This document shows positions 29,723-46,026 of a stretch of 64,000 nt of DNA, one piece after another; the stretch's first letter is position 1; the number at the start of each line of letters is the position of its first letter. The stretch comes from Bacteroidota bacterium (lineage in GTDB: Bacteria; Bacteroidota; Bacteroidia; UKL13-3). The notes under the pieces were generated by a model that made no database searches, was not told the DNA's origin, and was given only the letters and a program-made list of their open reading frames with translations. A program made the translations under genes and the position numbers. The stretch spans positions 186,001 through 250,000 of the forward strand of contig JAZKBU010000003.1 of assembly GCA_040388375.1 (NCBI GenBank), written 5' to 3'.

Positions 29723-30485
29723 TTTTGAAAGAATAGAAAATGATAAAGCAGCATTACGCTTGGAGTATTTATTGGCCAAACCCTTTCCGCATTTATGTAT
29801 TGATGAGTTTTGTGAAAAGGATAAAATAGAAGAACTATATAGTCAAATACCCGATATACAAACAAAAAGCCGGGATTATGTATTTGCGGCCAACAAATTT
29901 GAGAAATCTAAAATTAAAGATATATCACCTCTGTTCCAAGAATTACATGATGATTTAACTTCAGAGCAATTTGGTAGCTTTTTACGTTTTATAACCAATG
30001 AAGATGTTTTTGTAGATGAGGCCATGCATGGTGGAGGCATTCACCAGGGAAAACAAAATAGTTTTTTAGATATGCATGTTGATTTTAATTACCACCCATT
30101 GCATAAAAACTGGTTCAGGAATTTAAACCTGTTATTATATTTAAATAAGGATTGGAAACAAGAATACGGAGGCCATTTAAAGATAGAGGATTTACGTACA
30201 GGTGAAAAAAAAGCAATTGATGTACCTTTTAACCGAATGGTTATTCAACAAACACGTAAGTATACTTTACATGGTTACGACTTGACTCATTTTCCTTCAG
30301 GTGTTTACCGTACCTCTATTGCATCATACGCTTATACGGTTCACAAAGTACATATTGAAAAACCTCGTACTACTGATTGGCATCCAAAAGATGATGAACC
30401 ATTCAAGAAATTTTTAGCACGCATTTATGACCCGGCTGTAAAAGTTAAAAACAAGTTATTTGGAAGTTCTACGGCTAAAAATTAA
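29715..30485 (+). CDS. 2-oxoglutarate/Fe(II)-dependent oxygenase (prolyl-hydroxylase-like)
   Basis: 256 residues. The iron facial triad is visible as His121-x-Asp123 (MHVDFNYHP) and His186 (LHGYD), with Arg199 (GVYRTSIA) as the 2-oxoglutarate carboxylate ligand. LLLYLNKDWKQEYGGHLKI (139-157) is the usual core strand of the P4Hc/2OG-FeII_Oxy family. It sits between two glycosyltransferases, overlapping both by 8 bases and 1 base, so it is part of the same operon and may hydroxylate a sugar, lipid or peptide in that pathway; the substrate is not predictable. Confidence 0.85.
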   Translation: MIDFERIENDKAALRLEYLLAKPFPHLCIDEFCEKDKIEELYSQIPDIQTKSRDYVFAANKFEKSKIKDISPLFQELHDDLTSEQFGSFLRFITNEDVFVDEAMHGGGIHQGKQNSFLDMHVDFNYHPLHKNWFRNLNLLLYLNKDWKQEYGGHLKIEDLRTGEKKAIDVPFNRMVIQQTRKYTLHGYDLTHFPSGVYRTSIASYAYTVHKVHIEKPRTTDWHPKDDEPFKKFLARIYDPAVKVKNKLFGSSTAKN

Positions 30486-31573
30486 TGAGGATTGCAATAT
30501 TAGGTACGAGAGGCATACCCAATAATTACGGTGGGTTTGAGCAATTGGCAGAATATCTTTCTGTTGCATTGGTTAAACGTAACCATGAGGTTTTTGTATA
30601 CAACTCGTCATTGCACCCCTATACAGACAAACAGTTTAAAGGCGTAAATATTATTACCTGTGATGACCCTGAAGGAAAAATGGGAACTTTTGGCCAATTT
30701 GTTTACGACCTTAATTGTATACTGGATGCAAGGAAAAGGAATTATGATGCCATTATTCAATTAGGTTATACCAGTAGTTCTATATGGTGGTTTGCATTAC
30801 CTTCAAAACCACTTGTTATAACCAATATGGATGGCTTGGAGTGGAAGCGTGCCAAGTATATAAAACTCGTAAAACTATTTTTAAAATTAGCGGAATGGCT
30901 CGCTGTAAAAACAAGCAATTTGTTAGTGGCTGATTCCATAGGGATTCAAAACTATTTAACAAAAAAGTATAAAGTAAAATCTACCTATATACCTTATGGA
31001 GCTAATGCTTTTGTATCGACAGATTTTAATAGCCTTATTTCGTTTAACTTAAATCCTAAATCATATTTTATAGTTATAGCCAGGTTTGAACCGGAGAATA
31101 ATATTGAAACCATTATTAAAGGTTATTTATTAAGCGAAGCAACAGAATCGTTGGTAATTATTGGCGCTACACATTCTAAGTATGCAACTTATTTAATGCA
31201 TCAGTATAAGTCGCCACGTATTATATTTACGGGAGCTATATACAATATTAATGTATTAAACAACTTACGCTATTATGCCAAAATGTATTTTCATGGGCAT
31301 ACAGTTGGTGGTACCAATCCTTCGTTGTTAGAAGCCATGGCATCGCAGGTTTTTATCTGTGCCCATAACAACGAGTTTAATAAATCGGTATTGGAAGAGG
31401 ATGCCATGTATTTTAACGATGAAAGAGAAATAGCGGCTATTATTCAGTCAGATAAAAGTGTGGAATACATTGATAAAGCCATCAATAATAATTTAAAGAA
31501 AATACAGGAGTTTTATACCTGGAACAATATTATAGATGCCTATGAGCAATTAATAATAAATGCCGGTAAATGA
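30485..31573 (+). CDS. Glycosyltransferase with DUF1972 N-terminal domain
   Basis: 362 residues. The N-terminus MRIAILGTRGIPNNYGGFEQ is diagnostic of DUF1972, the N-terminal half of a set of GT4-like rhamnosyl/other hexosyltransferases. The C-terminal half contains VIARFEPENNIETIIKG and HGHTVGGTNPSLLEAMAS (GT-B donor site). Overlaps neighbours by 1 base (upstream) and 4 bases (downstream). Acts in assembly of the polysaccharide repeat unit; the sugar is not predictable. Confidence 0.88.
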   Translation: MRIAILGTRGIPNNYGGFEQLAEYLSVALVKRNHEVFVYNSSLHPYTDKQFKGVNIITCDDPEGKMGTFGQFVYDLNCILDARKRNYDAIIQLGYTSSSIWWFALPSKPLVITNMDGLEWKRAKYIKLVKLFLKLAEWLAVKTSNLLVADSIGIQNYLTKKYKVKSTYIPYGANAFVSTDFNSLISFNLNPKSYFIVIARFEPENNIETIIKGYLLSEATESLVIIGATHSKYATYLMHQYKSPRIIFTGAIYNINVLNNLRYYAKMYFHGHTVGGTNPSLLEAMASQVFICAHNNEFNKSVLEEDAMYFNDEREIAAIIQSDKSVEYIDKAINNNLKKIQEFYTWNNIIDAYEQLIINAGK

Positions 31574-32835
31574 AAATTGGGCTAAGCAATATTAAAAACA
31601 AACTGGATGAGCTTTTTATAACAGCCATTTCTGTAAGTGTTTTTTTGCCCATTAAATTCAGTAGTATTATTATTATACTGGCATTGTCCCATACTTTTTA
31701 TAAAGGCCATTTGCTTACCAGACTTAAACAGTTACGGGCAAACAAGTTTGCTGTTATTGTTTTAGGTTTTTTTGTTCTGCAAATAATTTCAGCTTTAACC
31801 AGCACTAATTTAACCGAAGGATTGGCCGTGTTGGAAAGAAGGTTAGCCTTTGTTTTGTTTCCTTTTCTATTAGTACAAAATTGGCCTGTAGAATCTGTTA
31901 AACGTATATGCTTAAGTTTTGTGGTAGTTTGTAATATAGCTTTGCTTTATTGTGTAAGCTTTGCACTTATTAGTTTTTACCATACCAAAAATAGCAGCGT
32001 TTTTTTTTACCACAATTTATCACAAGCTATTCAACTTAATGCTATTTACTTTTCCATTTATTGTGTTTTTAGCTTGTTTGTACTGCTGGTTTATTTTAAC
32101 CATATACCAGGCAAATACAAATACGTAGTATATGCAGCTTGCACCTTTTTGGTAACAGGTGTTTTATTGTTGAGCTCTAAAAATTTACTCTTTGTTTTGT
32201 TGATGGGAACGGTTGCTATTATTATGCAACAATCCGTTAATCAATACAGAAAAAAAGGGGTACTGGCTTGTATACTGTTGGTGCTACTAGCGGGCTTTTT
32301 TATTAAGCCAGTAAGAAACAGGTTTATGTTGGAAGTGAATGCCAATATGCAAGTAGTAAATATGCAACAATTCCGCTACGATACACCTTTTACCGGTCTA
32401 ACCCTACGTTTGGTCATATGGAAAAATTGTATTGAAATACTGAACGAGAAAAAAGCATGGATACAAGGCGTTGGTATTGGCGATTTTCAAGATTTAATCA
32501 ATGAAAAGTATAGAGCCAAAGGTATTTATAGTGGTAATAAAGAATTAGGCGATACAGGTTATATTGGTTACGGGCCACATAATCAATGGGTGGAAATGCT
32601 TTTATCTACAGGAATAATTGGGCTTTTGACTTTTGTTTTAGCGATAATTATTTTAATTAAAAAAGCATTAAACGACAAAACTATTTTACCCCTGTTATTC
32701 CTTTTTATTTTTATATCCGTTTCGTTTACAGAGTGCATATTGAGCACAAACAAAGGCATTATATATTTTATGTTTTTTATGTTTTTGTTTAGCATGCAAA
32801 ATTGTAAAATTTTAGAGAAGCCAACTGAAAATTGA
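31570..32835 (+). CDS. O-antigen ligase/polymerase (Wzy_C superfamily)
   Basis: 421 residues with about 11 membrane helices. The Wzy_C signature appears around residues 270-345: RLVIWKNCIEIL, GVGIGDFQDL and the short periplasmic loop with GPHNQWVEML, the conserved H-N motif of WaaL-type ligases. A second, more divergent O-antigen-type protein is at 24555; the presence of both suggests one polymerises and one ligates. ATGA overlap with the upstream glycosyltransferase. Confidence 0.83.
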   Translation: MKIGLSNIKNKLDELFITAISVSVFLPIKFSSIIIILALSHTFYKGHLLTRLKQLRANKFAVIVLGFFVLQIISALTSTNLTEGLAVLERRLAFVLFPFLLVQNWPVESVKRICLSFVVVCNIALLYCVSFALISFYHTKNSSVFFYHNLSQAIQLNAIYFSIYCVFSLFVLLVYFNHIPGKYKYVVYAACTFLVTGVLLLSSKNLLFVLLMGTVAIIMQQSVNQYRKKGVLACILLVLLAGFFIKPVRNRFMLEVNANMQVVNMQQFRYDTPFTGLTLRLVIWKNCIEILNEKKAWIQGVGIGDFQDLINEKYRAKGIYSGNKELGDTGYIGYGPHNQWVEMLLSTGIIGLLTFVLAIIILIKKALNDKTILPLLFLFIFISVSFTECILSTNKGIIYFMFFMFLFSMQNCKILEKPTEN

Positions 32836-32871: not shown

Positions 32872-33603
32872 TTGACAGGAAACATTACTCATTCAACAAG
32901 TCAATTTATACAACCAGCCAATGAAGAGATATTAATAGAAACATTTGATGATGTTGATGTGCTTGTTCGACCTGTGTTGTTTGATGAGTATTGCCCGCTT
33001 GATGGGCAGTTTGCCAAAATTTTAAAACGAACTTTTGATTTAACATTTACACTTCTTGCTTTTGTTTTTGTGTTGTGGTGGTTAATTCCATTGTTTGCGC
33101 TTTTGGTTAAATTAAGCTCAAAGGGACCTGTGTTTTTTATACAAACAAGAACAGGTATGCATAACGAACCGTTCTTATGTATTAAGTTTCGTTCCATGTA
33201 TGTAAATGAGCATGCCCATTTAAAACATGCTACTCGAAACGATACCCGCGTAACGCCTATAGGTTATTTTTTACGTAAATTTAGTTTAGATGAACTGCCC
33301 CAGTTTATCAATGTTTTTTTAGGCCAAATGTCTATTGTGGGTCCACGCCCATTAATGTTAAAACATACAGAACAATATGCTCAGCAAATGGATAGCTTTA
33401 TGGTGCGCCATAGAGTTAAGCCGGGCATAACAGGCCTTTCCCAAATAAAAGGATACAGAGGAGAAATGCATGACAATAGGATGCTGAGAAATAGATTGAA
33501 ATTTGATTTGTTTTATTTAGCGAAATGGAATTTGTTCTTAGATACAGTTATCATAATAAAGAGCTTAAAACTAATGTTGTTTGGTGATGATAACGCCTAT
33601 TAA
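32872..33603 (+). CDS. Initiating sugar-phosphate transferase (bacterial sugar transferase, PglC/WcaJ-like)
   Basis: 243 residues with a TTG start, the only option after an in-frame TAA at 32863. It transfers a sugar-1-phosphate to undecaprenyl phosphate to start the repeat unit. Elements: a single hydrophobic (re-entrant/TM) segment at ~55-78, KRTFDLTFTLLAFVFV, then IQTRTGMHNEPFLCIKFRSMY, DELPQFINVFLGQMSIVGPRP and VKPGITGLSQIKGYRG. It is the small monotopic core without the N-terminal multi-helix domain of WcaJ. A 23-base overlap with the following gene (20 bases if the latter starts earlier). Confidence 0.92.
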   Translation: MTGNITHSTSQFIQPANEEILIETFDDVDVLVRPVLFDEYCPLDGQFAKILKRTFDLTFTLLAFVFVLWWLIPLFALLVKLSSKGPVFFIQTRTGMHNEPFLCIKFRSMYVNEHAHLKHATRNDTRVTPIGYFLRKFSLDELPQFINVFLGQMSIVGPRPLMLKHTEQYAQQMDSFMVRHRVKPGITGLSQIKGYRGEMHDNRMLRNRLKFDLFYLAKWNLFLDTVIIIKSLKLMLFGDDNAY

Positions 33604-35131
33604 AGATAAAAAGCCCTTCATTTATTTAATACCTACACTGCTACTAGGTATTTTTTTTATTATAAAATATTACACGGCTCCTGTTGGCGATTTTGGAAAT
33701 TACTATTATGCTTCCCATTTTTTAAAACAAGGTAATTGGGGTCTTTGGATATACGAGCCCTATCAATTTAATTTAGCTATATACGATTTAGGGCAACGCA
33801 ACTTCTTTTTAAATTATACACCCGTTCCGCCTTTAAGTGCTGTATTGTATTTACCATTTACTTTTTTCTCCATTACAAAAGCTAAATTGATATGGAACAG
33901 CGTAATGTTATTGCTTTTTGTATGGAGTTTATTGCGTTTATATAATTATTCCAAAGTCGATGTTAAGCTATTGCTCTTAATTCCATTATTTGTTTTTGTT
34001 CCCTTACAAAACAATATAATGGAAGGGCAGTCCTATTTTCTTTTGTTTTTTTTATTGTTAGAAGGATTTATTCAGTACGCAAAAAAAAATGTTGGTTTAA
34101 TGGCCCTATGCTGGGGATTGAGCATTCATTTAAAGATCAGTCCTGCATTCCTTTTGTTTTTTCTGTTCTTCCAAAAAGATATCAAATCATTAAGTCTGGT
34201 TATATTCAATATTGTTTTGCTTACGCTTATATCATTACCATTAATTGGTTTCGATGTTTGGCAAAACTATATTTTTAAAATACTACCTCGTTTATACAAT
34301 GGCGAAATAAACAATACCTACGCTTACAATTACCAAAGTTTTCAGGTAATGCTTAAAACCATTTTTGTGCCTGATTTATTGCACAATGGCAATGCTCAGT
34401 TTGATAACAGTTTATTGTATAGCCAGTTGTTAGCCTGTTTTAAAATAGCCGTTTACGGATTAGGTATTGTGTTCTCCAGGTCAGCCAATAGCACCGTGCA
34501 AAAATTCAGTATCTGGTTAATTATTTCATTGCTCGTAAGTGGTTATGGCAATAGCTTTAGCTTAATATTGTTGCTTATTCCATTGTTTAGCTTTTCAGGC
34601 AAATGGAACTTAATAGATTATAGGTTTATAATAATAATGGGCTTAGGGGCTTTGATTGTCAATATACCCATTGCATGGTTTTATCATTTAAATGTATTTT
34701 TAAAGTTTCCTCGTTTTTTTGCTTTGCTGGTGTTTTTTGCTTGTTTATTATACTACAGTAAAATAAAAATAAGGCTCTGGTTTTTAAGTGTGCTGGTGCT
34801 TCCATTTTTGTTGATACACAAAGTTAACGCCAATATCCAAAACTATTTATTTGCCAAAGAAGAAGCCATTTTGGTATACGATTTTAAAGTAAAAGCAGGC
34901 AGAGTTACATTTAACTATTTCAATATAAACGGGCCGCAGCAAAGAGAAGTAAAGCTTGCTAATAAAGATGTCATATTAAAAGAAGAATGCAGGCAGGAAC
35001 CAATTTATAACAAAGACGAAAAAGTTTTAAAAAGCTGTTCCATTAATGATAGTCTGGTGTTTTATTTGTCAGATAAAAACAGGGGCGTTGGTTTTTATAC
35101 CATACGTATAGCAAACGCGGGCAATGAATAA
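33587..35131 (+). CDS. GT87/DUF2029-family membrane glycosyltransferase
   Basis: 514 residues from the ATG at 33587 (TTG and GTG codons lie 6 and 3 bases before). About 10-12 membrane helices. The DFGNYYYASHFLKQGNWGLW segment near residues 30-55 and the NYTPVPPLSAVLYLPF motif (loop with conserved Pro) match the DUF2029/GT87 mannosyltransferase-like family that uses polyprenyl-phosphate sugars. The last ~110 residues are a hydrophilic beta-rich tail (KAGRVTFNYFNINGPQQ). It overlaps the sugar transferase upstream by 17 bases and the acyltransferase downstream by 8. Confidence 0.7.
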   Translation: MITPIKDKKPFIYLIPTLLLGIFFIIKYYTAPVGDFGNYYYASHFLKQGNWGLWIYEPYQFNLAIYDLGQRNFFLNYTPVPPLSAVLYLPFTFFSITKAKLIWNSVMLLLFVWSLLRLYNYSKVDVKLLLLIPLFVFVPLQNNIMEGQSYFLLFFLLLEGFIQYAKKNVGLMALCWGLSIHLKISPAFLLFFLFFQKDIKSLSLVIFNIVLLTLISLPLIGFDVWQNYIFKILPRLYNGEINNTYAYNYQSFQVMLKTIFVPDLLHNGNAQFDNSLLYSQLLACFKIAVYGLGIVFSRSANSTVQKFSIWLIISLLVSGYGNSFSLILLLIPLFSFSGKWNLIDYRFIIIMGLGALIVNIPIAWFYHLNVFLKFPRFFALLVFFACLLYYSKIKIRLWFLSVLVLPFLLIHKVNANIQNYLFAKEEAILVYDFKVKAGRVTFNYFNINGPQQREVKLANKDVILKEECRQEPIYNKDEKVLKSCSINDSLVFYLSDKNRGVGFYTIRIANAGNE

Positions 35132-36224
35132 ACTAGTACAATTATTTACCATTGAAACCAATATAGCAAACAGGAATGTTGGTTTAGATATAATGCGAAG
35201 TGCAGGTGTGCTGATGGTGTTTTTTGTACATAGTTTATATTTATTTACTCCACATATTCCGCAGTTATATAAATTGTCATATGTTTTAAAAAATGGGGTT
35301 GAAGTGTTCTTTGGTTTGAGTGGATTTTTAATAGGTAATATTTTAATAAAACTATTTGTTGTCAATAAAGATTACTCATATCAGGGTATATTCAATTTTT
35401 ATAAGCGCAGGTGGTACAGAACAATGCCATTATATTTTTTAGGTATACTTCTCAATTTACTGGTTGGCTATTTTATAACAGGAAATTATAAAGATTTTAA
35501 CTGGCACTTTTTGGTTTTTATTCAGAATATTTCAGAGGCTAGTTTTTGGTTTTTCCCGGCTTCTTACTCTTTAAGTATTGAAGAGTGGTTTTACTTTTTG
35601 TTTCCGATTGGTTTTTTAATAGGAACTCTCGTATTGAAAAATAGCCCGCGCTTAAATATATTATTGGTGTGTATTGTTTTCATATTAATGTTTACTGCTA
35701 TCAGATGGAGTAAATTTGATAACCAAATACCTCATTGGGATGCAAATATCCGAAAATCCATTATTACCAGACTCGACTGCAGTATATATGGTATACTGAT
35801 GTCTTTGTTTTTATATAGCTATAAAGATGCGTTTAAGCAATGGAAAGCAATATTATTATTCATAGGCTTATTTATACAGGGTTTAACCATATACATGCAT
35901 ATAACCATGCCTGGTAGTTTAGGTAACTTTGTGTTTTATTTTAATCTGATACCCATTTCATTTGTACTCATGATTCCATGGTTGTATCACCTTCAAATCA
36001 ATAACCAATTTACAAAGCGTATGTTTACTTGGCTGGGTCTTATTTCATTTTCAGTTTATATTATTCATTTAAGTCCTTTACTGGAATTGCTGAATTTGAT
36101 AAAATTCACCAATGGCATCCAGGCTTTTTTTTACTTTATGGCCTATGCAGTGTGTGTATTTACATTTTCTACCTTGCTGTATAAGTATTTTGAAAAACCT
36201 TTAACCAATTTAAGAGATAAATAA
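35124..36224 (+). CDS. Acyltransferase family 3 membrane protein
   Basis: 366 residues with about ten membrane helices. The N-terminal GLDIMRSAGVLMVFFVHSLY contains the essential His of the family; SGFLIGNILIK follows in helix 2, and RRWYRTMPLYF contains the R/K-rich loop. Acyltransferase-3 proteins O-acetylate or otherwise acylate extracellular polysaccharides. Overlaps the previous gene by 8 bases. Start ATG at 35124. Confidence 0.88.
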   Translation: MNKLVQLFTIETNIANRNVGLDIMRSAGVLMVFFVHSLYLFTPHIPQLYKLSYVLKNGVEVFFGLSGFLIGNILIKLFVVNKDYSYQGIFNFYKRRWYRTMPLYFLGILLNLLVGYFITGNYKDFNWHFLVFIQNISEASFWFFPASYSLSIEEWFYFLFPIGFLIGTLVLKNSPRLNILLVCIVFILMFTAIRWSKFDNQIPHWDANIRKSIITRLDCSIYGILMSLFLYSYKDAFKQWKAILLFIGLFIQGLTIYMHITMPGSLGNFVFYFNLIPISFVLMIPWLYHLQINNQFTKRMFTWLGLISFSVYIIHLSPLLELLNLIKFTNGIQAFFYFMAYAVCVFTFSTLLYKYFEKPLTNLRDK

Positions 36225-36226
36225 AA

Positions 36227-38089
36227 TTGGTATTATTTAAATACATAAAACGGTTACAGCCCATTATAAGCAATGCAGTATTTATGTTATTGCCGAGTTT
36301 TGCCAATTTATTATTGTCAGTTATTGTTATTAATAAAAGTAGTAGCAATTTGTGGGGCGAAATTGTTTCTGTTCAAATTTATTTTTATATGATTACTGCT
36401 ATAACCATGTGGGGCAATAAAGAAAGTTTATTGCTTCAGTTTAGCAGACAGTCGCAAATAGTAACAGCCATCTGGCAACAATCATTCATCAGCAGGAGTT
36501 TATATTTACTTATTCCCTTGCTGCTTTTAACAGGCTTTTTGTACCCAAACTTTATTGGTGTTAATATTTGCATCTGGATTATAAGCCGCTTTTTTACCCA
36601 GTCAATGGAGAGTGTTTTTACCTTTAACAAAAAATACAACGCCACACTCGTTGCTGAAATTATTGCTTTGTTTCCACTCGTTGTTTTATTTATAGATAGA
36701 GTTGATTTGAATGTACCCAATATCATGTCTGTACTTTCCATTTCATATATGTTAAGGTTTTTAGTACAACTGGTTAACTTCAATTATCTGTTTAAAAATA
36801 TAACACTCGCAAAACCTGACTGGCAACTGTTAAAGCAAACCACTCCATTTATGCTGTTGGCATTATGTGGTTTTTTACAAACCAAATCCGACTTGTATTG
36901 TATCAGCTTTTTTAGTCATAAAGCAATGGTTGGCGATTATCAGGTACTAACCAGTTATACCAATTTGTTTTTATTAGTACCCGGTTTTTTAATGATTCCC
37001 TATACCAAAAATATTTACAGAATGGGCACGCATAGCTTACAAAAGTTCAAAAGCAAAGTGTTGAAAATTGGGTTGTTGCTTGGGTCTTTACATATAGTAG
37101 TCACCTATATTATTATTGAATTTATTTATGGGTTGTCATTCTCCATATTTAGCTATGCTATGGTATTTGTTTATATTGTTTTACCATTTTTCTATATAAT
37201 CAATATTTACAAACTGTATAAGCAGAATGCTCAACGTTATGTTATGCAAATCAGTTACCTCTGTATAGGTATCAATTTATTAGTATGTGTTTTATTAATT
37301 CCTGTATGGGGTATCAATGGCGCACTAATAGCCAATTTAGTCTCCCAATTAGTGCTATTTATATTTTATCACTTCAATATTAAGTTGGGTATAAAGACAT
37401 GTTTTAATGATAGGCGGGTAATACGTTTTTATAATACTTTAATTCCCACAGGTGCACTTTGTTTTGATGGCGGGGCAAATATTGGGAAAAGAACCAAAGT
37501 GTTATTAGAAGCGGGTTATAAAGTAATAGCCATAGAGCCACAACCGGAATGCATCAACACATTACAAAAGCTACAAACCCAATACAAGGGGTTAACAGTA
37601 ATGCAAAACGTATTGTCGACACAAAACGAAACATTTACTATGTTTGTAAGCAATGTGAACGAAGTATCAACCCTTTCCAAAGAATTTATAGAAGTGTACA
37701 GTTACCAAAAATATATTAATTGGAATCAAACCTTAATCGTTAAAGCCATTACGCTTGATTCATTGATTGCTGATAAAGGAATGCCTTTCTTTTGCAAGCT
37801 TGATTTAGAAAACCATGAGCTAGCAGCATTAAAAGGATTAACCCAATGCATACCTTTAATTTCGTTTGAGTTTAATAAACCTTTGATGCATAATTCTATA
37901 CTTTGTATTGATTATTTATCAGCCTTAGGTAATTATGAATTCAACGTATCGTACAAAGAGAATTTTATATTGGCAAGTAAAAATTGGCTTAACAAAAGCG
38001 ATATGATTGTTTGGTGCAATGCAATGCCTGCCGATATATTGACAGGCGAAATTTTTGCAAGATTAGTAGTAGAAAACAGCACTAAATGA
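36227..38089 (+). CDS. Fusion protein: MOP flippase plus FkbM-type methyltransferase
   Basis: 620 residues with a TTG start two bases after the upstream stop. Residues ~1-390 contain about 12 membrane helices (PSFANLLLSVIVINKSSSNL near the start) and resemble a polysaccharide flippase. From ~400 the protein is soluble: CFDGGANIGKRTKVLLEAGY is the SAM-binding motif I, AIEPQPECINTLQKLQ the acidic strand, and SFEFNKPLMHNSIL, with FCKLDLENHE (the FkbM-type D-x-E region), completes the fold. Codons run in one open frame with no stop or start codon between domains. FkbM enzymes O-methylate sugars or other hydroxyls. It overlaps the next gene by 4 bases. Confidence 0.82.
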   Translation: MVLFKYIKRLQPIISNAVFMLLPSFANLLLSVIVINKSSSNLWGEIVSVQIYFYMITAITMWGNKESLLLQFSRQSQIVTAIWQQSFISRSLYLLIPLLLLTGFLYPNFIGVNICIWIISRFFTQSMESVFTFNKKYNATLVAEIIALFPLVVLFIDRVDLNVPNIMSVLSISYMLRFLVQLVNFNYLFKNITLAKPDWQLLKQTTPFMLLALCGFLQTKSDLYCISFFSHKAMVGDYQVLTSYTNLFLLVPGFLMIPYTKNIYRMGTHSLQKFKSKVLKIGLLLGSLHIVVTYIIIEFIYGLSFSIFSYAMVFVYIVLPFFYIINIYKLYKQNAQRYVMQISYLCIGINLLVCVLLIPVWGINGALIANLVSQLVLFIFYHFNIKLGIKTCFNDRRVIRFYNTLIPTGALCFDGGANIGKRTKVLLEAGYKVIAIEPQPECINTLQKLQTQYKGLTVMQNVLSTQNETFTMFVSNVNEVSTLSKEFIEVYSYQKYINWNQTLIVKAITLDSLIADKGMPFFCKLDLENHELAALKGLTQCIPLISFEFNKPLMHNSILCIDYLSALGNYEFNVSYKENFILASKNWLNKSDMIVWCNAMPADILTGEIFARLVVENSTK

Positions 38090-39249
38090 ACAGAAAATTA
38101 ATAGCCTATTTATTTATTTGCTTTGCCATGGTCATTGTTTTTAATGCCTGCGTTAAAGACAAAGAAATAATATGGAACAGCAATCCCGATTTGCAAATTC
38201 AGTTGCGTTGGAACAAAGCCTATGATTTGGAAACAAAAGAAAAAGTAGAAGTAGGTTTACAGTGGAGCTTATCGTTTTTAGGAGCTACATTGCCCACCAA
38301 TACATACAGCAACGCACTTGTTTGGCAAGCCGATAATAAGGTACAACTCAATATAACAGAATTAGGTTTTAGCTTACCTGCACAAAAGGCATTGGCACAA
38401 TTGATCAAGGCTATTAAACAATCAGAGGAATATAGCCTATACCAATCCGTTGACATAGGCCGCTGGATAATGCTTACTGTAAATTCATCAAACCATTATT
38501 ATAAAATTACAGGGGCACTTAATAACTACACACAGTTTAAAGAGCAGTTCTTGTTCAGCGATTCATTGGGGGCAATTGTAGAATCAGCCGTATCAAAAGG
38601 CGAACGCAAAATTTATTTAAGTAATACCAACCAAGCCAATCAAATGGCATTTATAGCTGACGAAGGACAAGGTTCTATACCCAACCATACCTTTACTGAG
38701 GATAAACACGAAGTGTTAAATATTATGGATAACGGCCAATTGCGATTTGCCATTTACGATAATGCAGGCCAATTGATACCGACCTCCGACTCTATGTATA
38801 CCTTTGCCGGTAAACCTGCCAAATGTTTGTGGTGTCATGAAATAGTTATACAAGAACCTTTTAGTGCTGTTACCGATGTAGATGGTTATAGAACGATTGA
38901 AAATTTCAAATCATTCATCTCATCAAAAATGAATTTGTTGCAAAGCTACCGCAACACACTTCAATCGGTAGTTAATTTTAACCATCGGCAAGACCATACT
39001 TTTGCCGAGTTACTGTATATAAGCTTTATGGAAACATCAGCTGAAAGATTAGCACAGGAGTGGAATATGAGCGTGGCACAGGTGAGGCAGCGTTTAGTGG
39101 GTATACCTACACACAGGCATATAGAGTTTGATTTTTTAGGCGATTTATACAATAGAAAAGATATAGACGAATTGGGCCCGTATGGATACATAAAAGTGCC
39201 TGATTCAGCCAGAGAAAAATCAACGTATGAACCCGATTTGATTAAATAA
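38086..39249 (+). CDS. Lipoprotein with a single CxxCH heme-binding motif, function unknown
   Basis: 387 residues. Lipoprotein signal peptide with lipobox FNAC (Cys22). Middle portion is beta-rich and not recognised. C247-L-W-C250-H251 is a canonical heme-attachment motif, suggesting a c-type cytochrome-like site facing the periplasm; a second heme motif is absent. The C-terminal third is helical (SYRNTLQSVVNFNHRQDH and AERLAQEWNMSVAQVRQRL). It overlaps the fusion gene by 4 bases and is the last gene of the plus-strand operon. Convergent, 14 bases, with the arylsulfotransferase-like gene. The CxxCH could also bind zinc; spectroscopic proof is lacking. Confidence 0.65.
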   Translation: MNRKLIAYLFICFAMVIVFNACVKDKEIIWNSNPDLQIQLRWNKAYDLETKEKVEVGLQWSLSFLGATLPTNTYSNALVWQADNKVQLNITELGFSLPAQKALAQLIKAIKQSEEYSLYQSVDIGRWIMLTVNSSNHYYKITGALNNYTQFKEQFLFSDSLGAIVESAVSKGERKIYLSNTNQANQMAFIADEGQGSIPNHTFTEDKHEVLNIMDNGQLRFAIYDNAGQLIPTSDSMYTFAGKPAKCLWCHEIVIQEPFSAVTDVDGYRTIENFKSFISSKMNLLQSYRNTLQSVVNFNHRQDHTFAELLYISFMETSAERLAQEWNMSVAQVRQRLVGIPTHRHIEFDFLGDLYNRKDIDELGPYGYIKVPDSAREKSTYEPDLIK

Positions 39250-39263
39250 GCTTCATTATCTAT

Positions 39264-40604
39264 TTAATGGTCAAACTGAGTAATGTTAATTATTTCAGAG
39301 CGGGTAAAAGCATTGTTATCATTTGAGGTGTACACACAGTATTGTCCATTCTTTGTTATTTTAATACGTGCCTTTTTTTTACCATTGCTCCATTCATAGT
39401 GTCTGAATTTTTTCTTCGTTTGTAAAAAGTATTCATTTTTTATTTTTACCAGTTCAACAGGAGCATGATTAATTTCAGCAGGAATAGTTGGGTAGAAAAA
39501 AGCCCTGTAAGTACCTACCGTATCCGTAAAACCCAGCTCAAATACACTTTCGTTTTTTTCATTCACTACCTCAAAAGTTATATTGGGTGTTCCCTTTTCA
39601 ATTTTACCATAATTAATCAGCGTGTAGTTGTTTGGCAAGCGTTGCGTATTACCGGTTGCTTCACTTATTAATTTGTTCTTGCGGCTATAATTCCAGACCA
39701 ATTTTGCGGTTTTGTTTTGATCATCAACATAGTATTCTAGAGCCCTCACATTGTTTCTTTGTTCATTAAGAGTATAGCTGTTGTCAAACAAGGTAAACTG
39801 TTTGTTTTTGGTAAAGCGAGCATCATGTTGTCCATAAAAAGGTATGGTATCGTTCATCACTTTTATTTCATTTCTTTTTCCGCCCATCCGCCAAATAATG
39901 CTACTATCAGCTCGTTTAACTTTTACTACTTCATTAAAATATCGGATGGAAACAATTATATCACCCTCCTTATTCATATCTACAGAATTAAAATGTGTTA
40001 AATCAACATTTAAAGTATCATTTAAATAAAAGGGGTCAGCATCTTCAGGTTTATAAATACCCTTAGTAGTCCATTGAAATACAACCTTTTTATTTTGATC
40101 AATTTCCTGAATAACCCCATATTTAACTTTAGCATTTCTACTACCAAGTATTTGTTTTTGTAAAAACAATGGTTTTGCACTATAATCTTCTATTTGAGTT
40201 TCAGTACCCATTATCAAGTAATGTCCATTAGGTAAAATAATAAAGTCATGTGTATCTGTTTCAATATTGCCAATACAACTAACAGAATCAATCAACGTAA
40301 AATTCTTATCCATCAAAAAGTATTTACGGTCATGGTAGTAAGACATCAAACCATTTGACTGTATTTTAAAATCACTAATTTTGTCAATGTACTGGTATCG
40401 TATTATTTGGCCTTGCCCGTTAAGTATAAGCAACATGCCGTTAATTATTGGAGCCTCTTTCCTCATTTTAAAAGGAGCCATAAAATAATACCCTTTTGCA
40501 GGCGTGTTTTGTTTGTAGTTTACAATGGTATGTAATGGTTGAGCAATGATAGTATTTGCAAATAGTACTAAGCATAGCGTTAACATTTTTAGTTGGTCAA
40601 TCAT
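39264..40604 (-). CDS. Arylsulfotransferase-like secreted protein (Arylsulfotran_2 type)
   Basis: 446 residues with signal peptide LTLCLVLFANTIIAQ. It forms a beta-propeller-like fold. The conserved segments THFNSVDMNKEGDIIVSIRY and SSIIWRMGGKRNE followed by YGQHDARFTKNKQFTLFDNS match the Arylsulfotran_2 group of PAPS-independent sulfotransferase-related proteins, in which the two His residues of THFN and GQHD line the active site. Tail residues ~385-440 look like a short Ig-like/T9SS-associated strand pair (YEWSNGKKKARIKITKNGQY). It may act on phenolic compounds or polysaccharide; no direct evidence. Convergent with the lipoprotein gene, divergent from the radical SAM operon. Confidence 0.75.
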   Translation of the reverse strand: MIDQLKMLTLCLVLFANTIIAQPLHTIVNYKQNTPAKGYYFMAPFKMRKEAPIINGMLLILNGQGQIIRYQYIDKISDFKIQSNGLMSYYHDRKYFLMDKNFTLIDSVSCIGNIETDTHDFIILPNGHYLIMGTETQIEDYSAKPLFLQKQILGSRNAKVKYGVIQEIDQNKKVVFQWTTKGIYKPEDADPFYLNDTLNVDLTHFNSVDMNKEGDIIVSIRYFNEVVKVKRADSSIIWRMGGKRNEIKVMNDTIPFYGQHDARFTKNKQFTLFDNSYTLNEQRNNVRALEYYVDDQNKTAKLVWNYSRKNKLISEATGNTQRLPNNYTLINYGKIEKGTPNITFEVVNEKNESVFELGFTDTVGTYRAFFYPTIPAEINHAPVELVKIKNEYFLQTKKKFRHYEWSNGKKKARIKITKNGQYCVYTSNDNNAFTRSEIINITQFDH

Positions 40605-40710: not shown

Positions 40711-42204
40711 ATGGAGGTAATTCTTTTTAATCCGCGCAGTGCTACCTATAAATACCGTGTTCCTAATTCGGTGTTACAAATAGCAGGTGCTATTCACGAT
40801 AAATACTCTTGGATAATAGTTGATGGGAATCGTGAAAACGACCCGTATAAAAAAATAGTTGATAGCATCACTTCAGCCACCAAGTATGTTGGCTTTTCAG
40901 TAATGCCTGGCCCACAGTTACGCCAAGCCATTCCCTTTGCCAAACAAATTAAACAGCAGTTTCCGCATATAGTTATTATCTGGGGAGGTTACTTTGCTTC
41001 CAATCAGCACAAAAGTGTCTTAGAATCAGGCTTTGTTGATTATGTAATTAATGGTCCTGGCGATTATTCATTTCCATTGCTTTTAAATGCCCTAGACAAT
41101 AATTCAGCAATTGATGAAATTGAAAATTTAATTTATGTAAAAGAAGGAAAGATAACTAAAACCAAAAAGGCCGAGCTGGTTAATTACGATGACTTAAAGC
41201 CTTTGCCTTACAAAGAATTAGATAAATATTATTCTATTGAAAAATATTTAGGCAAAACCTATTTAGGCAATAAAACATTGGCTTACCACAGCAGTTTTGG
41301 CTGCCCTTTTACCTGTTCGTTTTGTGCAGTAGTACCTATTTATAATGCTAAGTGGAAAGCCAAATCAGCACAAGGTGTTTACAACGATATTAAGTATATA
41401 AAAGATACTTGGGGGGCTGATTCAGTTGAGTTTCACGACAACAATTTTTTTGTGTCAGAAAAACGGGTAATCGAATTTTCGAAACTGATTAAAGATGAAG
41501 GCATCATTTGGTGGGGTGAAGGACGTATAGATACCATTCACAAATACAAAGACGAAACATTGGCTTTGATGCGTGAAGCTGGTTGCAAAATGATTTTTTT
41601 TGGTGCAGAAACAGGTAATGATGAAGTACTGAAAAAAATGGATAAAGGCGGTACACAAACAGGCGAACAGATTGCCGCATTTGCTGCACGCATGAAAAAG
41701 TTTGATATAGTACCCGAATACTCCTTTGTATTAGGCACGCCTGCCGATACTCCCGAAGAAGTAATGCGCCAGATAGACAATGATATTGCTTTTATTAAAA
41801 GAGTAAAAAGCATTAACCCCGAAACCGAAATTATTATTTATGTATACAGCCCCGTACCAACTGAAGGTTCTGATATGTATGATAAAGTGCTGGCAAGCGG
41901 TTTTAGGTTTCCGCAGAAATTAGAAGATTGGTTACATGGCGACTGGGAAAATTTTGATTTACGCAAAAACCCCTTAACCCCTTGGTTAACTCCGGAAATG
42001 ATAGATAAAATTAAAAACTTTGAAACCGTTTTAAACGCATACTATCCAACCGTAACCGATATAAGAATGCAGCCATACCAACGTAAAGTAATAAAAGCAC
42101 TGTCAGGTATCAGGTATAAAAACAGTATATACCATTACCCTTATGAGCTAAAAGCTTTACAAAAATTATGGCAATACAGGCAACCAGAAATTCAGGGATT
42201 TTAA
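40711..42204 (+). CDS. B12-binding-type radical SAM protein 1
   Basis: 497 residues. N-terminal cobalamin-binding-like Rossmann domain (~1-150; IIWGGYFASNQHKSVL, INGPGDYSFPLLLNAL) and radical SAM core with Cys198-x3-Cys202-x2-Cys205 (CPFTCSFC) for the 4Fe-4S cluster. The cobalamin DxHxxG motif is not seen, so B12 may bind without the lower His ligand or not at all. BchE/HpnJ-like enzymes of this type do C-methylation, cyclisation or ring contraction. C-terminal ~90 residues are helical. First gene of a six-gene run; the stop overlaps the next start by one base (TAATG). Confidence 0.85.
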   Translation: MEVILFNPRSATYKYRVPNSVLQIAGAIHDKYSWIIVDGNRENDPYKKIVDSITSATKYVGFSVMPGPQLRQAIPFAKQIKQQFPHIVIIWGGYFASNQHKSVLESGFVDYVINGPGDYSFPLLLNALDNNSAIDEIENLIYVKEGKITKTKKAELVNYDDLKPLPYKELDKYYSIEKYLGKTYLGNKTLAYHSSFGCPFTCSFCAVVPIYNAKWKAKSAQGVYNDIKYIKDTWGADSVEFHDNNFFVSEKRVIEFSKLIKDEGIIWWGEGRIDTIHKYKDETLALMREAGCKMIFFGAETGNDEVLKKMDKGGTQTGEQIAAFAARMKKFDIVPEYSFVLGTPADTPEEVMRQIDNDIAFIKRVKSINPETEIIIYVYSPVPTEGSDMYDKVLASGFRFPQKLEDWLHGDWENFDLRKNPLTPWLTPEMIDKIKNFETVLNAYYPTVTDIRMQPYQRKVIKALSGIRYKNSIYHYPYELKALQKLWQYRQPEIQGF

Positions 42205-42872
42205 TGAAACGGATACTAAAGAAATTGATTGAATGGTTTTATGCTCCTTTTGTTCTACAGTATTTAAAGCAAGATAGATTTTATACATATCAGGGAATAA
42301 AAATAAAAGTTAAAAAAGATGTTTTTCATCCCGGTTTTTTCTTTAGTACCAAGCACCTTATTTCATTTTTAAGTCAATTAGATATTAAAGATAAAAAAGT
42401 ATTAGAGTTAGGTGCGGGTAGCGGCTTAATATCATTTTATTGCTATACCAAAGGCGCACATGTAACAGCTACCGATATTAATTCAATAGCTATTGAAGCA
42501 TTGAAAGAAAATAGCAATAGGCTGCAAATGCTTGTTCATATACTGGAAAGTAATTTGTTTGATTCCATACCCAAACAAACTTTTGATTACATTCTTATCA
42601 ATCCACCGTACTATCCTAAAACACCAATAAACATAGCCGAGCATGCCTGGTATTGCGGAGCCAATTTCGAATACTATGTAAAATTATTTACGCAGCTAAA
42701 ATCTTACATAGACAGCAATTCAAGTGTATTAATGACGTTGTCAGAAGATTGTAACATAGATAAAATAACAGTGCTCGCTAATGAAGGAGGCTTTGATTTG
42801 ATTTTACAAAAAAAACAGCGTTTATTGTGGGAGATGAATTTTATTTATAAAATACAGCCAATTAAGAAGTGA
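42204..42872 (+). CDS. SAM-dependent methyltransferase with NPPY motif
   Basis: 222 residues from the ATG at 42204, which overlaps the upstream stop by one base; an earlier in-frame ATG at 42168 is unlikely. Motif I is ELGAGSG (68-74) and the acidic strand TATDIN follows; NPPYYP (133-138) is the D/N-PPY motif of enzymes that methylate planar amino groups (RNA, glutamine or adenine). No RNA-binding domain is attached. Within this operon the likely substrate is a small molecule or pathway intermediate; housekeeping rRNA methylation is a weaker alternative. GTGA overlap with the next gene. Confidence 0.83.
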   Translation: MKRILKKLIEWFYAPFVLQYLKQDRFYTYQGIKIKVKKDVFHPGFFFSTKHLISFLSQLDIKDKKVLELGAGSGLISFYCYTKGAHVTATDINSIAIEALKENSNRLQMLVHILESNLFDSIPKQTFDYILINPPYYPKTPINIAEHAWYCGANFEYYVKLFTQLKSYIDSNSSVLMTLSEDCNIDKITVLANEGGFDLILQKKQRLLWEMNFIYKIQPIKK

Positions 42873-43825
42873 ACGCAGCAACCCTAAATACAAGTGAAAT
42901 AGCATTAGAGAAAACGAGTATTGCAATTGTTAAAACACTGCTGTATTTCAATATATTTAATCATCCATTATTAGCCAGCGAAATAGTGGAGTTCAGCACT
43001 ATTGAGCCTGATGAAATAGGCAACGTAGAACAATACTTAAACGAGTTGGTTGAAAAAGAACTTATTTATAAAATAGGTAAGTTCTATAGCATCAGTAATA
43101 AAGTACTTTATATAGACCGAAGAATTAAAGGCAATGAACAAGCCGCTATTTATTTAAAAAGGGCTAAAATAGTTTCCAGGGTTATTTCATGGTTTCCTTT
43201 TGTAAGAGGTGTAATGATTTCAGGCTCATTATCCAAAGGTTATATGGATAAAGGTTCCGATATAGATTATTTTATAGTAACCGAACAAAGCCGTTTGTGG
43301 GTTTGCCGAAGCATATTGGCCCTGTTCAGAAAAGTAATGGTGGGCTCTTTGCGCAAGTACTTTTGTATAAACTATTTTGTAAGTACAGCTACCCTGAATA
43401 TTCCCGATAAAAATTTATTTACAGCTACCGAAATAGTGAGTGTTTATCCAACATACGGGCAATTGGCCTATTATAAATTGCAGCAGGAAAACAGTTGGGT
43501 AAAAGAGTATTTTCCCAACAAAAAAACAAACGAAATAACCATCAATAATTCAACCTATCCGTTTAGCATAAAAGCCACTATAGAGTTTTTACTGAATGGA
43601 AGCATGGGCGAAAAACTAGATGCATATCTGTTTAGCTTAATGCTGAAGCGTTGGAAAAAACGATATGCAGATTTTGATGAAACGCAATTCGACTTAAATA
43701 TAAGAACCAAAAAGAATGTTTCAAAACAACATGAAAAGGGACATCAGTTTGTAATTTTACATAAGTTTATGGAACAGATTGATAACTTTGAAAAGTTACA
43801 CAAGGTAAAGTTAGTGCATGGCTGA
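42869..43825 (+). CDS. Winged-helix plus nucleotidyltransferase-domain protein
   Basis: 318 residues with a GTG start (GTGA overlap). Residues ~15-75 look like a winged-helix domain (IAIVKTLLYFNIFNHPLLASEI). Residues 119-133 give GSLSKGYMDKGSDID, the GS-x-S/G-K/R-G-x8-GSD-x-D signature of Pol-beta-type nucleotidyltransferases with Asp131 and Asp133. It may transfer a nucleotide to a small molecule or protein. Its C-terminus is helical and basic. Same operon as radical SAM genes, overlapping both neighbours (4 and 8 bases). It does not look like the MntA/HEPN antitoxin type, since the N-terminal fusion is different. Function not known. Confidence 0.75.
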   Translation: MNAATLNTSEIALEKTSIAIVKTLLYFNIFNHPLLASEIVEFSTIEPDEIGNVEQYLNELVEKELIYKIGKFYSISNKVLYIDRRIKGNEQAAIYLKRAKIVSRVISWFPFVRGVMISGSLSKGYMDKGSDIDYFIVTEQSRLWVCRSILALFRKVMVGSLRKYFCINYFVSTATLNIPDKNLFTATEIVSVYPTYGQLAYYKLQQENSWVKEYFPNKKTNEITINNSTYPFSIKATIEFLLNGSMGEKLDAYLFSLMLKRWKKRYADFDETQFDLNIRTKKNVSKQHEKGHQFVILHKFMEQIDNFEKLHKVKLVHG

Positions 43826-45248
43826 TATTTTAATTACTCACTCTTATTTTTTACGTTTTGATGCTAAGCAATGGACCAACCAACAGCCTTATGCTCCCTT
43901 AGCAACACTTTATGTAGCTTCAGTATTACGTAATGCAGCCTGTAATATTTCATTTTACGATGTAATGTTTAATGAAACCGTAGCCGAAATGGAAGTGGCA
44001 TTTATAAAAGAAAAGCCCCAAGTTTTTATTATATGCGATGATGGTTTTAACTATTTAACCAAAATGTGTTTAACCAACATGAGAGATGCAGCATTTGAAA
44101 TGATTGCACTGGCGAAAAAATATGGCTGTAAAGTAATTATTTCAAGTTCCGACTCAACCGACCATTCAGATGAATATATAAAACGTGGTGCTGATTTTAT
44201 AGTAGTAGGCGAAGCCGAGCAAACTATGCTGGAGTTAGTAAACGCCCTAACCAATAATGAAACAAATTTTACCCATATAAACGGGTTACGTTTTTTAACT
44301 AACCAAGAGTTAGTGAAAACAGCTAAAAGAGAAAACTTAAAAGACCTTGATACCTTACCAATGCCGGCTTGGGATTTGGTAAATATAGAAAACTATAAAA
44401 GCCGTTGGTTAGCTAAAAAAGGCTATTTTTCTATCAACATGGGCACTACCCGGGGTTGCCCTTTTAAATGCAATTGGTGTGCAAAACCCATTTACGGGCA
44501 AAGGTATAACTCACGTTCACCACAAAATGTAGTGAACGAAATTAAATACCTGCAACAACAATTTGGCATAAACCATATTTGGTTTTGCGATGATATATTT
44601 GGTCTAAAACCCAATTGGGCCAATGAATTTGCCCGGGTTTTACAACAAGAAAATGTATCCATTAAATTTAAGATACAATCGCGTGTTGATTTATTATTAG
44701 AAGAAGATAACATAGCTGCACTGGCACAAGCCGGATGCGATGAAGCATGGGTGGGAGCAGAAAGCGGCTCACAAAAAATATTAGATGCCATGGATAAAGG
44801 CACACAGGTAGAACAAATTTACGAAGCCACTTTATTGATGAAAAGCAAAGGAATTAAACCCTGTTTCTTTTTACAATTTGGGTATTTAAACGAAACCTAT
44901 GCCGATATAGAATTAACCCTTAAAATGGTATTTGATTTAATGCCACACGATGTAGGTATTTCCGTTTCCTATCCATTACCGGGCACTAAGTTTTACGATA
45001 AAGTAAAAAACCAATTAAAAGAAAAAACCAACTGGACCGATTCCGATGAATTAGCCATGATGTTTAAAAGCACATTTCCGGGCGAATTTTATAAAAAACT
45101 ACAACGTTACGTGCATAGCGAATACCGTAAGCGCATGGCATTACAGGCATGGAAACAACATAAAAATTTCAAGAAAGCAATATCCCTAGTATACAGGTAT
45201 CCGCAAACATTCATTTCAAAAGCAGTGCTGAATAAATATGTACACTAA
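43818..45248 (+). CDS. B12-binding-type radical SAM protein 2
   Basis: 476 residues. N-terminal B12-binding-like domain (start DILITHSYFLRFD, with PYAPLATLYVASVLR; later GADFIVVGEAEQTMLELV). Cluster motif Cys214-x3-Cys218-x2-Cys221 (GCPFKCNWC) and SINMGTTRG before it; then IWFCDDIFGL, which is a typical SAM-binding strand. It resembles protein 3 downstream more than protein 1, with shared GQRYNSRS/GQSYRRRS stretches, so these are probably tandem paralogs. Overlaps neighbours by 8 and 11 bases. No DxHxxG. Confidence 0.86.
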   Translation: MADILITHSYFLRFDAKQWTNQQPYAPLATLYVASVLRNAACNISFYDVMFNETVAEMEVAFIKEKPQVFIICDDGFNYLTKMCLTNMRDAAFEMIALAKKYGCKVIISSSDSTDHSDEYIKRGADFIVVGEAEQTMLELVNALTNNETNFTHINGLRFLTNQELVKTAKRENLKDLDTLPMPAWDLVNIENYKSRWLAKKGYFSINMGTTRGCPFKCNWCAKPIYGQRYNSRSPQNVVNEIKYLQQQFGINHIWFCDDIFGLKPNWANEFARVLQQENVSIKFKIQSRVDLLLEEDNIAALAQAGCDEAWVGAESGSQKILDAMDKGTQVEQIYEATLLMKSKGIKPCFFLQFGYLNETYADIELTLKMVFDLMPHDVGISVSYPLPGTKFYDKVKNQLKEKTNWTDSDELAMMFKSTFPGEFYKKLQRYVHSEYRKRMALQAWKQHKNFKKAISLVYRYPQTFISKAVLNKYVH

Positions 45249-46026
45249 AACAACTTTTGATGTTATTGCCGATACCTATGATAAAGATTTTACAAAAAGT
45301 ATTATAGGTTCCTTACAGCGTAAAAAAGTTTGGCATTATTTAACAAAATACCTGCCTCAAAAAAACAATTTACAAGTATTGGAAATAAACTGTGGTACCG
45401 GTGAAGATGCTGTGTGGCTTGCACAGCTAGGTCACCATGTTACAGCTACAGACTTGTCAAGTCAAATGATAACGATAGCTAAGAATAAAGCTATACAAAC
45501 CAATAACATACAGTTTGAAGTAAATGGTTTCGATACATTAATAACAAGCTATAAGCAACAACAATTTGATGTAGTGTTTTCCAATTTTGCAGGTTTAAAC
45601 TGTATCAATAAAGATGCATTAACACAGCTCAATAAAGATTTAGCAGCTTTGTTAAAACCAAACGGACAGCTAATAATAGTTTTGTTAGGCAAGTATTGTT
45701 TACTGGAACGCTTGTATTTTTTGTTTCGTTCTGAGTTTAAAAAAATAAACAGGCGCAAACAAAAAGCAACGGCCTACTTAAGTGATAATAATTACCAGGA
45801 TACATGGTGTTATTCATATAAGGAACTACAAACCATTTTCTCCGCGTTTAAATTAAAGCGGAAACGACCAATAGGGCTTTTTATTCCACCTTCCTATTTA
45901 GAAGAAACAGTTAAAAAGCACAGAACAATACTATATTTACTCAAATTTTTCGATTCCCTGTTTGGCAACATTTCCTTATTGTCAAACTATGGCGATCATA
46001 TAATTTTGCAATTAGAAAAAAAATAA
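45238..46026 (+). CDS. Class I SAM-dependent methyltransferase
   Basis: 262 residues. UbiE/COQ5-like fold: LEINCGTGEDAVWLAQLGHH (48-67) holds motif I, VTATDLSSQMITIA the acidic loop, and SNFAGLNCI the later strand. The N-terminus FDVIADTYDKDF is the usual substrate-cap start. It probably methylates an O or N atom of an operon intermediate. It overlaps radical SAM 2 by 11 bases and radical SAM 3 by one base, so it is tightly coupled. Substrate unknown. Confidence 0.85.
   Translation: MYTKTTFDVIADTYDKDFTKSIIGSLQRKKVWHYLTKYLPQKNNLQVLEINCGTGEDAVWLAQLGHHVTATDLSSQMITIAKNKAIQTNNIQFEVNGFDTLITSYKQQQFDVVFSNFAGLNCINKDALTQLNKDLAALLKPNGQLIIVLLGKYCLLERLYFLFRSEFKKINRRKQKATAYLSDNNYQDTWCYSYKELQTIFSAFKLKRKRPIGLFIPPSYLEETVKKHRTILYLLKFFDSLFGNISLLSNYGDHIILQLEKK

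Follow-up and report, generated by a model that had tools for sequence, protein, structure and literature searches.

The fused gene and its neighborhood

The window, the whole 64,000-nucleotide stretch of Bacteroidota DNA that was analyzed, contains a single open reading frame at 36227-38089 on the forward strand that has 620 codons, codes for 620 amino acids, and has no stop inside. It begins with a TTG codon that lies two bases from the stop of the acyltransferase gene upstream, and the following gene on the same strand (38086-39249) begins 4 bases inside its end. The host assembly is 3.97 Mb in 34 contigs, and the fused gene is intact on contig C3 (G000:C3:222227-224086, open frame 622, zero stops). 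An earlier note on this DNA had described a flippase and a full methyltransferase domain that share one frame with no internal start or stop between them. The shared frame, the completeness of both halves, and the lack of a stop were borne out; the lack of a start is not strictly right, as an in-frame TTG occurs near the joint. The features of the locus are as follows.

30485-31573, +, glycosyltransferase gene (DUF1972/Glycos_transf_1 by Pfam), in the same run of genes as the fused gene
31570-32835, +, Wzy_C/O-antigen ligase-type gene, same run (PF04932, 3.2e-12)
32872-33603, +, initiating sugar-phosphate transferase (Bac_transf), same run (PF02397, 4.1e-60)
33581-35131, +, GT87 glycosyltransferase gene, same run (PF09594, 3.6e-18)
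35124-36224, +, acyltransferase 3 family gene directly upstream of the fusion (PF01757, 4.3e-20)
36227-38089, +, fused gene in one open frame, putative Wzx-type flippase and predicted FkbM methyltransferase, 620 aa, TTG start
36227-37387, +, flippase half (residues 1-387), with twelve transmembrane helices as read from the model (most separate homologs are 376-419 aa long; Z 30.7 to WzxE)
37373-37408, +, junction or linker, residues 383-394 (placed by homolog ends and starts; pLDDT below 50 at 390-394)
37385-37387, +, in-frame TTG (L387), a possible internal start that would yield a 234-aa methyltransferase
37409-38089, +, FkbM methyltransferase half, residues 395-620 and the stop (PF05050 and TIGR01444 above cut-off; PF05050 match at 37466-37882)
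38086-39249, +, 387-aa protein with no Pfam family in the Pfam scan, overlapping the stop of the fused gene by 4 bases

The genes around the fusion form a Wzx/Wzy-type glycan cluster, with Bac_transf, GT87, DUF1972/GT4, Wzy_C, and acyltransferase genes, and no ABC exporter was identified among the 20 window proteins scanned with Pfam. A 2OG-Fe(II) oxygenase gene (PF13640; 29715-30485, +) lies amid the glycosyltransferase genes. The protein encoded downstream of the fusion at 38086-39249 has an N-terminus like that of a lipoprotein, and its CLWCH stretch resembles a c-type haem site. A second, ordinary flippase gene is found at 23081-24562 (+; PF01943, 4.4e-17), and a Wzy_C gene of its own comes next (24555-25778). 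BLASTP between the two flippases of the window returned only short, weak pieces (best E value 0.014), and two adjacent systems for glycan assembly may be present in the window.

Further along the window, an arylsulfotransferase-like (ASST) gene on the reverse strand (39264-40604, -) separates the run of genes that contains the fusion from three B12-binding radical SAM genes (starting at 40711, 43818, and 46026 in 40711-47411, +). The radical SAM genes are interleaved with two class I methyltransferase genes and a nucleotidyltransferase-like gene. Genes for B12 radical SAM proteins are also found near an FkbM gene in two other loci (L101 and L011).

A complete flippase fold in the first half

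Stand-alone flippase homologs, mostly 376-419 aa in length, cover most of residues 1-391 of the fused protein at 23-38% identity and stop at about residues 380-396. Those named in a scan with two short patterns belong to Bacteroidota records or to two Chloroflexi MAGs. An AlphaFold model of the fusion, built from 38 sequences, has a mean pLDDT of 91.8 and a pTM of 0.76; it contains two ordered domains, with only residues 390-394 and 618-620 below a pLDDT of 50. Twelve membrane helices were read in the model over residues 2-382, counting the long helix at 336-382 as two, while hydropathy alone gave nine stretches. Model residues 12-387 aligned with inward-facing WzxE (PDB 9g9p) at a Z score of 30.7 (373 residues aligned, rmsd 3.5), and the half matched the MurJ fold at a Z score of 28.7. 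From the homolog alignments, the twelve modeled helices, and the match to the WzxE and MurJ folds, this half is predicted to be a complete flippase and not a truncated one.

Scans of the flippase half returned no flippase model in Pfam at an E value of ≤0.01 and no flippase family in NCBIfam. NCBIfam likewise assigned no family to three stand-alone flippase relatives or to the second flippase of the window, and the close stand-alone relatives L003 and L030 matched no Pfam family at an E value of ≤0.1. Profile comparison with a PF01943 member was weak (probability 3.3, E value 0.013). A PDB sequence search produced no match at an E value of ≤1, and the top named matches in a BFVD fold search were methyltransferases, corresponding to the fold of the second half. 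The identity of the first half as a putative flippase thus comes from its homologs and predicted fold, and its membership in the MOP superfamily as a Wzx-type protein is claimed by fold only, a Pfam sequence match being absent.

An alignment of the fusion and 15 homologs (16 sequences) identified invariant residues at W43 G44, G63 N64, R90, P258, and N262, with K65, K261, and R265 nearly invariant. W62, the first residue of a W62 G63 N64 K65 stretch, is invariant or nearly so. The P258-x-x-K-N stretch is similar to a conserved motif in TM8 of TacF (PMC13385700), to which it may be equivalent.

A divergent FkbM domain in the second half

Residues 395-617 contain the sole Pfam family found in the fused protein, a PF05050 match at residues 414-552 (37.4 bits, cut-off 22.7), and a TIGR01444 match at residues 412-548 (60 bits, cut-off 37.7). 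Nineteen stand-alone methyltransferase homologs of 227-290 aa either start at positions corresponding to about residues 378-396 of the fusion or have a longer N-terminus. As a separate gene the domain is common, with PF05050 present in 60 of the 62 genomes of the family. A tree of 35 methyltransferases did not place the fusion, and no donor lineage is named.

Forty-eight columns are conserved in at least 80% of the 19 homologs. The fusion keeps 40, including D414, G416, G420, E437, P438, K524, D526, E528, and E531. The remaining eight differ, six of them with residues that are absent from all 19 homologs, and these unique substitutions include L527, N529, and A534, which lie around the D-V-E-G motif. 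Motif I reads D-G-G in the fusion and D-I-G or D-V-G in every one of the 19 homologs. The unseen residues near D-V-E-G, together with the D-G-G motif I, mean that methyltransferase activity is not assured.

We considered whether the second half is degenerate or non-catalytic, serving the flippase as a cytoplasmic substrate-reading or scaffolding domain. Divergence at positions 415, 431, 436, 464, 527, 529, and 534 is in keeping with such a role, as are profile scores lower than those of relatives (37.4 bits with PF05050 vs 56.6-77.1 in six other FkbM proteins; 60 bits with TIGR01444 vs 70.1 and 84.1). Both scores nevertheless exceed the curated cut-offs, the acidic and glycine positions of the SAM-binding motifs are kept along with D526, E528, and E531, and a full methyltransferase domain is predicted at high confidence. 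We regard this reading as very unlikely, and predict that the methyltransferase half is probably active but divergent.

The junction and the integrity of the frame

The position of the fusion at which flippase homologs stop is also where methyltransferase homologs start. No linker sequence is inserted at the joint, which is marked only by the short low-confidence stretch at residues 390-394. Two potential start codons occur in this region. The in-frame TTG at 37385 would give a product as long as stand-alone methyltransferases usually are. The other, an ATG at 37399 that is out of frame and next to a run of four T's, coincides with the start position of the stand-alone homolog L042. Several single-base changes at the junction would yield two well-formed separate genes.

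These features could indicate a sequencing or assembly artefact, in which a single-base length error near the junction joined two overlapping operon genes, and the homologs found are indeed separate genes. We examined the ATG as a sign of an indel and dropped it after a control with codon-shuffled junctions, since a separate out-of-frame ATG was also available in 391 of 1,000 shuffles and the codon carries little weight. A four-base homopolymer run is also not a typical site of sequencing error.

Frameshifts were searched for in 444 kb of the same genome, including the window, using a scan that recovered 53 of 88 planted indels and replaced a first, poorly sensitive one (3 of 48). It identified six native events. 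Four are boundaries between two frames, each with its own start, and the other two are ≤45 bases from a gene end where the listing shows a single frame; there was no clear mid-gene frameshift among the six. A looser setting gave 26 native events, and the three of the further 20 that fall within the window are gene boundaries according to the gene list. Should none of these events be real, frameshifts would have a 95% upper bound of ~1 per 90 kb (3/(0.6 × 444 kb)), which makes an error within one junction of ~60 bases unlikely. An artefact at this joint is accordingly an improbable source of the single frame. The earlier note had offered either a true fusion or a recent loss of a stop, to be abandoned if all homologs were two separate genes and the frame here held a frameshift or read error. 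The homologs found are separate genes, and among the genomes examined the fused frame occurs once; nothing pointed to a read error, and the frameshift scan and shuffle control make a single-base artefact unlikely.

Searches for the same fusion in other genomes

The search of other genomes that the earlier note had proposed was run, and the matches listed were separate halves, leaving the fusion a single instance. Genome sets for these searches overlap (genome handles run to G809), and the counts given here exclude the fusion itself. A whole-protein search of 64 genomes, which are also the order-level set, produced no second fusion among 22 matches (19 to the flippase half and 3 to the methyltransferase half, one of which is a second place in the fusion's own genome). 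No second fusion was found in a search of 395 genomes (46 matches listed, 16 flippase and 30 methyltransferase), in a further search of 395 genomes (9 matches, 2 and 7), or in 46 genomes of another order (24 matches, 4 and 20). E-value limits were 1e-10 to 1e-20, and both 395-genome searches scored at most three candidate places per genome and are not exhaustive. Where alignments do cross the joint (L013, L044, and L057 among them), they pass through stop codons, and the frames read there are separate. Open-frame length was the sole criterion for L232-L247 and for matches without a fetched locus.

No other match in the 64-, 395-, and 46-genome searches was in an open frame longer than 433 aa. 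A search of 58 genomes identified one longer frame, an FkbM frame of 624 aa (L020), which was rejected as a flippase fusion: its N-terminal part has no Pfam match, and just one stretch there is hydrophobic, marginally so. When 62 genomes of the family were searched with PF05050, one frame among the matches listed exceeded 400 aa. This 562-aa FkbM protein from the same genus (G009:C68) is soluble-type and was likewise rejected, having no strong membrane helix and a weak GNT-I-like N-terminal part below cut-off. In contigs from a viral collection, GT25-like or DUF268 domains share a protein with FkbM domains (L106:392-1813, L112:2197-3606, and L132:2974-4434).

Broader scans gave a similar outcome. 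A scan of 84,980 species genomes with the two short patterns, which is not exhaustive, identified 17 flippase loci, none of them fused. An earlier whole-protein scan of species genome contigs returned 71 stretches with no relative among them. Searching plasmids by tblastn gave seven places, all matching the methyltransferase half and none covering 80% of the query. A profile built from a mixed alignment (A4) has 425 positions with many flippase columns lost and is a weak test for fusions; against 395 genomes it returned 22 matches besides the fusion, in frames of 345-461 aa. Searches of the open-licence literature brought up no flippase-methyltransferase fusion among the titles and abstract openings listed. 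The joining of FkbM to a flippase appears new, as a single instance made of two parts of already known kinds.

The two gene types do sit together elsewhere. Polaribacter porphyrae (L101) has consecutive genes for a flippase, a class I methyltransferase, and an FkbM methyltransferase, and Flavobacteriaceae S0862 (L100) has the flippase and FkbM as separate genes of one cluster in the same order, with one gene between them. The types are 3.5 kb apart in G035:C71, and in L017 an FkbM gene is directly upstream of a PF01943 flippase. Nine stretches surrounding methyltransferases (L070-L075, L082, L084, and L085) included one with such a flippase, that of G035, and none of seven surrounding flippases (L076-L081 and L083) contained such a methyltransferase. 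Fifteen of the 17 flippase loci from the pattern scan were also without such a methyltransferase in the flanks examined. Linkage of flippase and FkbM genes recurs, yet is not general.

These patterns bear on whether the fusion is recent and near-neutral, with the halves working as they do when separate, no coupling between them, and the internal TTG perhaps making free methyltransferase. A single instance among the genomes examined, a joint with no added linker, a TTG placed to yield a 234-aa enzyme, and the occurrence of both gene types in common clusters in a few other genomes all fit this explanation. Recency is not proven, as neither the 58- nor the 64-genome search identified a close relative in which the unfused genes are neighbors, and the TTG is a poor discriminator because 532 of 1,000 shuffled junctions also carry an in-frame start-like codon. 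We consider such a recent, near-neutral joining unlikely.

Proposed function and comparison with known systems

We favor, with moderate confidence, a real and lineage-restricted fusion in which a Wzx-type flippase carries a predicted FkbM O-methyltransferase on its cytoplasmic C-terminus. This reading is based on the single frame, the fold and completeness of the halves, the largely kept methyltransferase core, the glycan-gene context, and the clustering of separate homologs in two other genomes. A flexible segment of about ten residues past the last helix would connect the flippase to the methyltransferase. Glycosyltransferases of the operon would assemble a repeat unit on undecaprenyl-phosphate, the tethered SAM-dependent enzyme would O-methylate a sugar of the lipid-linked unit where the flippase opens to the cytoplasm, and the flippase would then turn the methylated unit to the periplasm. 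We infer the catalytic activity, the acceptor sugar, the order of methylation before flipping, and any gain from tethering.

The C-terminus of the O157 Wzx after its last helix is described as cytoplasmic (PMC11706664), so the methyltransferase should sit with SAM and the undecaprenyl-linked unit. The cytoplasmic placement claimed in the earlier note is supported in this way by homology, from the WzxE fold and the O157 C-terminus. In the Wzx/Wzy pathway, methyl groups usually decorate the repeat unit. The capping role suggested in the same note is not supported: capping by WbdD belongs to chains of the ABC-transporter pathway, whereas the fused gene has neighbors of the Wzx/Wzy type. A methyl group at the site of extension by Wzy could still terminate the chain.

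A stronger version of the favored reading is a hard-wired machine, in which only the methylated unit is delivered to or licensed for the flippase cavity, in one processive step. We hold this to be possible but doubtful. On how Wzx flippases select their units, Liu and colleagues describe a preference for cognate units and propose triggering by preferred structural elements (PMC6436433). A flippase bearing a glycan-modifying enzyme suggests that a methyl group may be one triggering element here, and the fused enzyme would ensure that this element is on the unit. Methylation and export may be physically linked in the fusion, whereas the relatives examined have separate genes, and in this single protein a point mutation could uncouple modification from translocation.

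The fusion shares features with several known systems and differs from each. Like known Wzx flippases such as WzxE (PMC11706664), it has a MOP fold over residues 12-387 and a glycan context with an initiating transferase, glycosyltransferases, and Wzy_C, but it has no PF01943 match and carries a C-terminal enzymatic domain. Its full domain scores above the PF05050 and TIGR01444 cut-offs, as in the FkbM family, but its partner is a membrane flippase; partners in the remaining long FkbM frames that were tested are soluble-type, being GT25-like, weakly GNT-I-like, or DUF268 domains or, in L020, the N-terminal part without a Pfam match. In WbdD and related terminators, a lipid-linked glycan is likewise methylated before export (PMC3482155, PMC11231755). 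WbdD, as described, uses a kinase domain in capping methylation that ends chains exported by an ABC transporter (PMC3482155). It differs from the fusion as a kinase-methyltransferase that acts on the chain end of an ABC pathway and is separate from the exporter polypeptide. The fused protein has no kinase domain, PF05050 being its only Pfam family and the model containing no further domain. TacF is a MOP flippase described as monitoring prior phosphocholine modification of its unit (PMC13385700). In that description the modification is read by the flippase's own cavity and the modifying enzyme is not carried, unlike in the fusion, so that a methylate-to-flip machine would have gatekeeping built in where TacF relies on recognition.
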